Shown here one piece after another: positions 30,096 to 33,397 of a DNA stretch of 36,777 nt. Within the stretch, counting starts at the first letter, position 1. The number at the start of each line of letters is the position of its first letter. The notes under the pieces were generated by a model, which did no database searches, was not told the origin of the DNA, and worked only from the letters and a program-made list of their open reading frames with translations. The DNA is from Alphaproteobacteria bacterium (GTDB lineage Bacteria > Pseudomonadota > Alphaproteobacteria > Micavibrionales > Micavibrionaceae), in assembly GCA_029880245.1 (NCBI GenBank), contig JAOUOR010000014.1, positions 1 through 36,777 on the forward strand, written 5' to 3'. The position numbers and the translations under genes were made by a program.

Positions 30096-31202
30096 ATGGG
30101 TTTTAATTGCGGGATTGTCGGACTTCCCAATGTAGGGAAATCTACACTTTTTAATGCATTGACGGCGACTGCTGCGGCGCAAGCTGCGAATTTCCCATTT
30201 TGTACGATTGAACCGAATGTGGGGCGCGTCTCTGTGCCGGATGAGCGCCTTAATAAAATCGCTGCTTTGGCCGGATCACAAAATATTTTGCCGGCGCAGC
30301 TCGAATTTGTAGATATTGCCGGTCTTGTGAAAGGAGCTTCACAGGGCGAGGGGCTGGGGAATCAGTTTCTGGGAAATATCCGTGAAACCGATGCGATTAT
30401 TCATGTTCTGCGTTGTTTTGAGGATGATGACATCCATCATGTAGATGGATCTGTTGACCCAATTAGAGATGCGGATGTGATTGAGACCGAATTAATGCTG
30501 GCTGATTTGGAAAGTATTACCAAGCAAATTGATAATATCGGTAAGAAAAAGCGTTCCGGTGATAAAAAAGTCGAGGCTCAGTGTGATTTTATGGAGCAGA
30601 TTAAAGTCAAGCTTGAAAGCGGTGAGCCTGTCAGATCAATGACAAAGTCTCTTGATGAAGATCAGACTCGTTGGCTTAAATCATGCCAAATGATAACAGC
30701 CAAGCCGGTTCTTTATGTCTGTAATGTATCGGAAGAAGATGCGGCTAAGGGCAATGAGTGGACTAAGAAAGTTGAGGAAATGGCGCAGAAAACAGGAGCC
30801 CGAGTAGTGCGTATTTCTGCTGCTGTCGAGGCCGAGATCGCGCAGCTTGATACGGAAGAAGAAAGATATGAATTTCTTGAAACTATGGGCTTAAGTGAAC
30901 CGGGCCTGAATCTGGTTATCCGAGAAGGGTATAAATTACTGGCGCTTCAGACCTATTTTACCGCTGGCCCTAAGGAAACACGTGCATGGACTATTCCTGT
31001 GGGTTGTAAGGCACCGCAAGCTGCCGGTGTTATCCATACTGACTTTGAAAAAGGTTTTATCAAGGCTGAGACTATTGCCTATGATGATTTCGTTAATAAT
31101 GGCGGGGAGCACGGTGCAAAGGAAAAGGGCAAAATGCGTCAAGAAGGTAAGGATTATATCGTTCAAGATGGTGATATAATTTTGTTCCGGTTTAATGTGT
31201 AA
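30096..31202 (+). CDS. ychF: redox-regulated ATPase YchF (OLA1)
   Basis: YchF is an Obg-family ATPase that binds ribosomes and reacts to oxidative stress. Motifs: [14 protein letters not shown] (P-loop, about 8-21), [11 protein letters not shown], and [20 protein letters not shown] (G3 region, about 70-90). The NKxD motif is replaced by CNVSEED, which shifts specificity to ATP, and the C-terminal TGS domain starts near 275. Length is 368 residues, normal. It has its own promoter. It is the last of the conserved rplY-pth-ychF series; downstream the gene content changes. Confidence 0.97.
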
Positions 31203-31255
31203 ATCGTTTTGTTTATTTCAGAGGAGTTCATATCATAATTTTTTATCTCACATTG

Positions 31256-31360
31256 TATAGTCATCTCGCTTTATTTTTACACAAAGCATAAGGAACAAAG
31301 CGTATTAAATATAAGTGAGTGACGAATAACGATGTGTAAAAATAAAGCGAGATGACTATA
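31256..31360. repeat. 105-bp element with perfect 28-bp inverted repeats (MITE-like)
   Basis: Left arm 31256-31283 (TATAGTCATCTCGC...) is exactly complementary to right arm 31333-31360 (...GAGATGACTATA); the 49-nt centre is not coding. A TA could be the duplicated target if the element is of the IS630/Tc1-mariner type. It lies between ychF (stop 31202) and the GH39-like gene (stop 31388) and would form a 28-bp hairpin in RNA. No transposase or second copy is seen in this window. Confidence 0.7.
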
Positions 31361-31387
31361 GAGGTTGGGATCAGGAGGCTAAAAAAC

Positions 31388-33397
31388 TCACTTTTGTTCT
31401 TCAAGCACGAGCCAGGCAATTGAATTCGGTTCCATATGAATGGTGACTGTCCATTGCTGGGTTGCAGGGATGGTCTTAGTGGCTGCTTTGGAGAGCATAA
31501 CTGATGGAGAGCTATTTATTTCACGTGCAATATCAGCGACACCATCATCTTCTGTATCCTGAGTTAAACGAATCATCTCCAACATACGATTTTGTTCAGC
31601 AATAGATATCTTTGATAAGAAACTTCTCTTATCTGGTTCTGTTAACAGTTTTGAAAATCTTGAAATTTCCTGTTCGTCGTATCCCTCACGCTTAAAGGCG
31701 CTGAATACTTCATCCCGTAATTTTTGTTTTACGGTCTTGCGGTGATCACGAACCTTCGGTTCTATAACAGACTTAACACTGACTGGGTTTGTGTGCGAAG
31801 AATCAATCAGATACAGAGAATATTGGATATTATTTTTGAACGGCAATGAAGAGAATGTAACAGTTACAGGCGTTTTTTGACGTGACATTTCTTCGGCATG
31901 TTGCAAGAGATCTTTTGTCTGAATCCCTATCTCGGAAAAATCTTGCTCCATAGATGAGGATAAGCCAAGTTTATGAGGCGATCTTTGACCAAGTATGACC
32001 TGTTCAAACATTTTGCTATCGTGAAAAGCCGACGTAAGTTGAGGAAGAGTGTAACCCTTCGTCATAGCTTTGGCGAGTGCTCCTTTTAGGATTGCGGATC
32101 GTGTGGGTATATATGAGGATAGAACTGCCGTGACGCGACCAGGGTCAGCTCCGCCTAACACGCTGATGAGTGGTTCGCTGGATGTCACATCCAGGCGTTT
32201 AGAACCAACTTGATCAAGAATGGAAAAAGCATGGAATGCGGGTTTCTTAATAAAACTCTTCGTATATAACCCGAAATCACCAATGAATTCTGGGGCCTCT
32301 TCCTGACGCTGTTCTATTAGTGATGTAAAGCTGTGGTATTTAATGCCGGCACGATCCATAGCTAGTAGCGTGGATACGACGTATGCTGCAAGTAAATGAG
32401 TATCTCTTTCTTGGCTTAAGACTTCAGGCCAGCTCTGCCAACTGGACCACTCACCTATTAGGAGATCGGTATTAGGATCATAACCAGCATCGCTCAACCA
32501 GCGGCGAGCCAGATAACTCGCGGCATCCCAAGAATAGAGAGGGTCTGCTGTGAACTGATGCCATACTATGAAGTCTATGGGTAGACGAGTAAGACCCAAC
32601 TCGGGGAGTGGTTCTTTGGCGCAATAGTTAATAAATTTCTGAAGCAAGGGAGGCCACCCGCTTGGCGACTTCGTATTGAGAAAAGCACTCACACCTGGTC
32701 CTCCGATCTTTGCCTTGGAATCAGCTCGGAGTGCGCCGAGAACGGAGTAACGATACAGCTTGAAGTATTCCTCTTCTGTCCCTTGCCAGTAACCACCATC
32801 AGGCTCCCACCAGATTTTGTACATGGCCGGAATACCGAGTTCACGATTGTAGTGATAGACAATACGCTCAACGAGTTTTGCCCACGCGGTGTAGTCCTTT
32901 GGCGGTGAATATGTTGCCTTGGCGGCAACATCTCCGGGTACCGGGCTCAAATCATTACTAGAGGACAGCCACAGAGGCATAGCCGCAATAGCAATTACAA
33001 CCTTTCCCCCTTTTTTATGAATCTCTTTTACGAGATCATCTGTCCAAGCTATTCTTGAGGCAATATCATCTGGAGTCTCGGAATTTTGGAGAATTTCTTT
33101 GAGATCTATTTCTATGGCTCCAGGTTTTAATTCATCAAAGAAACTCTGCTGGACGTATGATGGAAGGAAAAGGCCAAATGTAAATGCTCCTGCCCGAAAT
33201 GTGTATGGCATAGAAGCTGTCTGGCGGTCTGCATTGATAGTTACCAGTACGCCTTGAGCGGCAGCGTGAGGTGTTCTCGCATAAAACATAAAACCGACCA
33301 AGAACATGGCTGTTATCCCGTGAATTAGGATGTGTTGTCTTTTAATCCTGATACAGTTTCTCCTCATTTCGCCACGTCTTAATTTTGGATTTAGCAT
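31388..33397 (-). CDS. secreted GH39-like glycoside hydrolase
   Basis: The 669-residue protein starts with a signal or anchor (HILIHGITAMFLVGFMFYA, cleavage after AAAQ near residue 48). A (beta/alpha)8 region (about 60-440) resembles GH39 xylosidase/exopolysaccharide hydrolases. KIWWEPDGGYWQGT holds the likely acid/base Glu198 (Trp replaces the usual Asn before it), LLIGEWSS the likely nucleophile Glu316, and DFIVWHQF the His near residue 280. The last 230 residues have no recognised domain. Its codon and base use is richer in G+C than most neighbours. The gene stands alone with no sugar-transport partner. Substrate is unknown; it might trim the cell's own exopolysaccharide. Confidence 0.72.
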   Translation of the reverse strand: MLNPKLRRGEMRRNCIRIKRQHILIHGITAMFLVGFMFYARTPHAAAQGVLVTINADRQTASMPYTFRAGAFTFGLFLPSYVQQSFFDELKPGAIEIDLKEILQNSETPDDIASRIAWTDDLVKEIHKKGGKVVIAIAAMPLWLSSSNDLSPVPGDVAAKATYSPPKDYTAWAKLVERIVYHYNRELGIPAMYKIWWEPDGGYWQGTEEEYFKLYRYSVLGALRADSKAKIGGPGVSAFLNTKSPSGWPPLLQKFINYCAKEPLPELGLTRLPIDFIVWHQFTADPLYSWDAASYLARRWLSDAGYDPNTDLLIGEWSSWQSWPEVLSQERDTHLLAAYVVSTLLAMDRAGIKYHSFTSLIEQRQEEAPEFIGDFGLYTKSFIKKPAFHAFSILDQVGSKRLDVTSSEPLISVLGGADPGRVTAVLSSYIPTRSAILKGALAKAMTKGYTLPQLTSAFHDSKMFEQVILGQRSPHKLGLSSSMEQDFSEIGIQTKDLLQHAEEMSRQKTPVTVTFSSLPFKNNIQYSLYLIDSSHTNPVSVKSVIEPKVRDHRKTVKQKLRDEVFSAFKREGYDEQEISRFSKLLTEPDKRSFLSKISIAEQNRMLEMIRLTQDTEDDGVADIAREINSSPSVMLSKAATKTIPATQQWTVTIHMEPNSIAWLVLEEQK

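Follow-up and report, generated by a model that had tools for sequence, protein, structure and literature searches.

A probable Correia-type, hairpin-forming mobile element in Micavibrio-type genomes, with an orientation that appears to follow replication

The element downstream of ychF

We analyzed a stretch of 36,777 nucleotides (the window) on contig JAOUOR010000014.1 of a Micavibrio-related alphaproteobacterium (assembly GCA_029880245.1; genome size 2.15 Mb). The ychF gene stops at position 31202 and is followed after 53 nt by a 105-bp element, which is separated by 27 nt from a convergent open reading frame (31388–33397) that encodes 669 aa and carries a domain of glycosyl hydrolase family 39 (GH39). 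The element consists of two exactly complementary 28-bp arms around a 49-nt centre, with the termini TATAGTC...GACTATA (Table 1). A repeat search recovered the arm pair with an imperfect extension to 39 nt, and no other local inverted repeat in the window ranked higher.

Table 1 Features of the element in the window
Feature	Position	Strand	Basis
Complete element with both outer TA dinucleotides; probable Correia-type palindromic mobile element	31256..31360	+ (core strand = + strand)	Matched by R1 in the sample of the own genome (106 bits, E 1e-21; R1 built from 49 copies including the window copy)
Left arm, TATAGTCATCTCGCTTTATTTTTACACA	31256..31283	+	Direct reading and repeat search; arm family in the genome
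Core, AAGC...GCGTATTAAATATAAGTGAG...AACGATG; with the inner hairpin, internal loops conserved	31284..31332	+	Alignment A1, covariation
Right arm, fully complementary to the left arm	31333..31360	+	Direct reading; arm comparison across copies
Left outer TA, probable target dinucleotide	31256..31257	.	Alignment A1; inference
Right outer TA, probable target duplication	31359..31360	.	Alignment A1; inference

The predicted RNA fold of positions 31240–31380 had an energy of −51.3 kcal/mol (z −9.6), which was equalled by none of 200 shuffled sequences. No terminator-like site was found at the element, and no Rfam family matched the window at gathering score. Thus, what the preliminary description had read from the letters, namely perfect repeats next to a glycosidase gene that are not explained by a terminator and would give a long hairpin when transcribed, agrees with our analysis. 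The position between convergent genes might suggest one isolated hairpin that regulates or terminates ychF or the adjacent gene; given the missing terminator match, the dozens of related copies elsewhere in the genome, which already refute it, and the absence of the element after ychF in congeners, this explanation has practically no probability left. The end of ychF was readable in eight congeners and the element was absent at this place in all of them, but genes other than the GH39 frame follow ychF there, and because the neighboring gene differs as well, this locus is not a clean empty site. In two species, TATAGTCACG upstream of ychF (L145:1441–1500 and the matching end of L146) resembles one end of the element, which might be explained by a promoter −10 box or by a relic.

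Copies in the genome and its relatives

The search for further copies by BLASTN that had been recommended in the preliminary description found about 30 places in the same genome, mostly near 105 bp and 70–85% alike. We also used a covariance model (R1), which was built from 49 Micavibrio-type copies only and contained no Neisseria sequence. Its raw count of 81 in this genome includes opposite-strand shadows, and because palindromes are matched on the opposite strand too, R1 counts per genome were set aside as copy numbers. A hand count of the distinct places among the listed R1 matches, together with the places found by BLAST only, gave a minimum of 50 distinct copies; this count, like all others given here, is derived from search results. 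Family members are 104–109 bp long, dispersed and intergenic, and form arm subfamilies in which the sequence varies and complementarity is kept. Where the preliminary description had set a mobile element against a single copy at a conserved place, we therefore found dispersed copies, together with the absence after ychF mentioned above.

R1 matches were present in 26 of 36 relatives, some of which had dozens of copies, and were absent from one near-complete congener (G009, two contigs). A scan of genome contigs for the core pattern gave Micavibrio sp. UBA5703 and other Alphaproteobacteria metagenome-assembled genomes as hosts. Viral contigs had no match to the exact core pattern, and plasmids had none to the window element or to one long form; another long form had relatives in plasmid-search records of Azotobacter, Pseudomonas and Halomonas. 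A second subfamily comprised four near-identical copies in G000 (C110, C105, C86 and C1; L047, L045, L046 and L044), whose 96–99% identity indicates recent activity. Two further copies were unusual. One (L048, G000:C98, about 82.7 kb) resembles a member of one subfamily inserted into a member of another at a TA and then shortened by core–core recombination. In the other (L020:1501–1597, G000:C85), the two arm types have traded places with respect to the core, which looks like an inversion of either the core or the arms. For Neisseria gonorrhoeae, inversion of Correia elements has been reported (cited in PMC10969869).

The perfect arms that drew attention to the window copy are peculiar to it. 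In a comparison of 138 distinct copies, the two arms were mostly 4 to 9 edits apart; they were free of differences in the window copy only, the arms of all others differing by at least two edits (typically 5 to 8). Therefore, perfect 28-bp arms are a private state of this copy and not the state of the family. Both arms are of the left-arm type CTCGCTTT and share their private bases, so that the most likely origin is the copying of one arm over the other, in the manner of template switching at quasi-palindromes.

Conserved fold and strand asymmetry

In the alignment of 49 copies (A1), 23 of 25 pairs show changes in both partners, and pairing holds in 94.6% of cells; when the partner was slid by one to three columns, pairing dropped to 31–42%. 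This covariation strongly supports the predicted fold. We then compared non-Watson–Crick cells on the core strand. With the predicted structure, G.T exceeded A.C by 109 to 20, a ratio that leans on a structure predicted from the same strand and on related copies; with a structure chosen by Watson–Crick pairs only, which gives the fairer figure, the counts were 83 and 39. In addition, the core strand folded better than its complement in 45 of the 49 copies. The G.T excess and the better folding of the core strand together argue for selection on one single strand, either RNA or DNA, and the conserved internal loops, taken with the one-strand G.T preference, suggest that the folded single strand is recognized by something.

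Empty sites and candidate enzymes

Empty sites in relatives, which the preliminary description had proposed to look for, were cleaner at other loci between congeners: L158 (G001) against L157 (G010), with 81% identity over 808 bp, and L177 (G004) against L160 (G003), with 83% over 824 bp. These sites show gain or loss of copies; the comparisons span 68–83% identity, and at such distance the junction and an exact target duplication lie below resolution. The outer TA was less conserved in old copies of alignment A1 than the inner TAGTC, which fits a TA dinucleotide as the probable target. The earlier label of a MITE thus holds with respect to multiple, dispersed copies, inverted ends, TA termini and patchy occurrence among relatives, but its attribution to an IS630/Tc1-type element is not supported.

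That attribution would make the element an ordinary MITE of a TA-target IS whose full-length copy was lost or is missing from the assembly, its resemblance to Correia elements (see below) being a convergence of small palindromes. TA at both ends, the inverted ends, the size and the lack of coding capacity would all fit, and the IS630-type DDE_3 domain was indeed found in four copy-bearing relatives (G002, G004, G005 and G010). However, no DDE_3 domain was found in the draft assembly of the own genome or in six other copy-rich relatives (G006, G007, G015, G021, G022 and G048), and G013 has the domain without copies of the element. The full-length IS with the same ends that BLASTN had been expected to reveal left no trace either, as the own genome contained no orphan arm that could belong to one. 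Furthermore, the core and inner helices, and not the ends alone, are conserved and covarying, and the Correia match exceeds structured decoys. We consider this origin unlikely. RUP of Streptococcus pneumoniae, which is about 107 bp long and depends on IS630-Spn1 (PMC2229807), is alike by description in length, TA target, inverted ends and lack of genes; a cognate IS630 is present in its genome, whereas none was found here.

Under a second possibility, the element would be REP-like or IS200/IS605-like, with a Y1 (HUH) transposase moving it in the form of single-stranded DNA. A hairpin, strand asymmetry and replication-strand bias, all seen in the present family, are IS200/IS605-like traits. The bias of IS200/IS605 elements is described in PMC6006769. 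CGTC-1 REPs, which are likewise palindromic and dispersed, have been reported in the same host group, for Micavibrio aeruginosavorus (PMC3733652). REPs measure 20–40 bp, bear a GTAG or CGTC tag and are accompanied by a RAYT (Y1) enzyme, whereas the window element has 105 bp and TA ends, and no Y1 domain (PF01797) was found in its genome or in G006, G015, G021, G022 and G048. The better-folding strand would also lie opposite the lagging-strand template, the reverse of the active strand of IS200-like elements. A Y1-moved element is therefore very unlikely.

An IS5-type domain (PF01609) occurred at one place in the genome, split over two overlapping frames near a contig end (C19:5119–5469, L265), where the strongest inverted repeat in the vicinity resembles GG(C/G)TCAGGAC and not TATAGTC. 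Accordingly, IS630, Y1/RAYT and IS5 partners were each set aside. It should be noted that the enzyme search covered DDE_3, Y1 and IS5-type domains and that IS copies may drop out of draft assemblies, which leaves these negative results short of proof.

Relationship to Correia elements

A short Correia element was taken from IMG/VR contigs with the help of the published repeat. It is 106 bp long, begins with TATAGT and has GGACAAGGCG at nearly the same place as the window element and GCAACGCTGT on the other side. R1 matched it over its full length (49 bits, E 1.5e-8 in 103 kb). By sequence profiles alone, it scored 11.9 and 14.1 bits, whereas 3000 decoys with the pairing, the composition and the TATAGT ends of the Correia element (CREE) reached at most 8.1 and 7.8 bits. 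The family of the window element also shares with the 104–108-bp form of CREE/NEMIS its length (105 vs 106 bp), the TATAG/CTATA ends, an imperfect palindrome, dispersed intergenic copies, the conserved core, and GGACAAGGC and GCAACGNTGT at corresponding places flanking the inner hairpin. On the other hand, the published 26-bp repeat reads TATAG[CT]GGATTAA..., and the Micavibrio-type arms (TATAGTC...) diverge after TATAGT; the 50-bp insert of the 153–157-bp Correia form is absent. CREE/NEMIS duplicate a TA target, their transcripts are cut or bound by RNase III and the elements carry outward promoters, while a simple consensus scan revealed no convincing outward promoter at the window element. 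The match to CREE is one of core and architecture, with different arms. Because the host is a Micavibrio-type alphaproteobacterium and not Neisseria, we use the name Correia-like rather than CREE. Other short dispersed palindromes of Proteobacteria (ERIC, YPAL and the Rickettsia palindromic elements; PMC2229807) are of similar length and were likened by description only.

We surveyed 398 Pseudomonadota genomes with R1 (E up to 0.01) and obtained matches in 67 genomes from 39 of 213 genera; at this threshold about four genomes are expected by chance, E-values being rough, and weak single matches are not individually countable. Among the 67, and found blind, was a 1.83-Mb Neisseria-like genome (G163, L118) with Correia-type arms. 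In other groups, the core CAAGGC...GAGCGACGA.YAACGC was kept, the arms were different and the TATAG ends were mostly absent; covariation was seen in 24 of 25 pairs, on an alignment fitted to the model. For 20 loci of other lineages, Rfam gave no family at gathering score, and its low-threshold matches were generic hairpins such as plant miRNAs. Some unusual forms were also observed. In a 69-bp Correia form (L103:683–751), the missing part corresponds almost exactly to the inner hairpin from AAGGCG to CAACG, and six loci of other Pseudomonadota (L131, L134, L138, L140, L142 and L143) contain two adjoining cores in opposite orientation, several of them inside longer elements ending like AGGGCCTGTT...AACAGGCCCT.

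In the literature that we searched, Correia elements were described from Neisseria only, and neither the term 'Correia-like' nor a link of Micavibrio to such elements appeared, the repeats described there being REPs only; most subscription journals were outside this scope, so an earlier description is possible. This is probably a Correia-type element, with a distribution wider than we found reported.

Orientation relative to replication

Copies on one contig mostly lie on the same strand. Using the 20-kb GC skew as a proxy for replication direction, we found the core strand opposite the positive-skew strand for 66 of 75 copies in relatives sampled for long contigs (G001, G003, G004, G021, G022 and the class member G120; not G015) and for 27 of 35 in the own genome (93 of 110 together), although copies on one contig are not fully independent. 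At an absolute skew of at least 0.05, the split in the sampled relatives was 55 to 4 (hand count), and on one contig (G003:C8) switches of strand mostly coincide with a change in the sign of the skew. The window copy departs from this rule, its core strand running with the skew (+0.127). Unlike this strong bias of Micavibrio-type genomes, three genomes of other groups (the Neisseria-like genome, G159 and G417) had none (10 to 9 among 19 copies), although the Neisseria-like sample is small.

The orientation could also reflect selection on transcripts instead of replication, copies being kept where the core strand is transcribed because the RNA hairpin undergoes processing, by RNase III for example, or is harmless in that direction. 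Between co-directional genes, copies did lie with transcription in 17 of 17 cases in the own genome (first pass) and in 15 of 18 in relatives, and the G.T excess on the core strand would also be expected from such selection. When tandem genes ran against the skew, 24 copies lay with transcription and 1 against; when the genes ran with the skew, only 6 lay with transcription and 14 against, and in the wider phylum the figure was 10 of 18 with transcription. From the two splits it follows that replication polarity is the better predictor of orientation, with transcription adding a smaller effect. A pure transcription-orientation model is weakened by these data, and we regard selection on transcripts as rather improbable. 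Insertion or survival of copies seems to be coupled to replication polarity.

A model for the family and its significance

Taken together, we propose, with a probability of roughly three in four, that the window element belongs to a dispersed family of non-autonomous mobile elements of Correia type (CREE/NEMIS) that form hairpins and are moved in trans, and whose orientation follows replication in Micavibrio-type genomes. Members of this family have the ends (TA)TAGTC...GACTA(TA) and a core that is conserved and structured (ACAAGGC...GCGTA..TACGT...AACGNTGT), between imperfect arms of about 26 nt in which a change on one side is matched on the other, and they would be moved by an enzyme encoded apart from them. 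For Correia elements themselves, the mobilizing mechanism has been stated as not determined (PMC2649163). The predominance of the core strand on the negative-skew strand would follow from insertion coupled to the replication fork, or from preferential loss where the better-folding strand is the lagging-strand template; the data fit either process without separating them.

A broader, more speculative view, which is possible though doubtful, is that Correia elements represent one branch of an old Pseudomonadota-wide hairpin superfamily with a conserved structured core, which might spread by fork-coupled insertion through an unrecognized enzyme or through replication or repair by the host and not through a classical TA-target transposase. 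The same core across Pseudomonadota provides many independent genomes in which to seek the mobilizing factor, and the replication-strand bias offers a testable clue to it.
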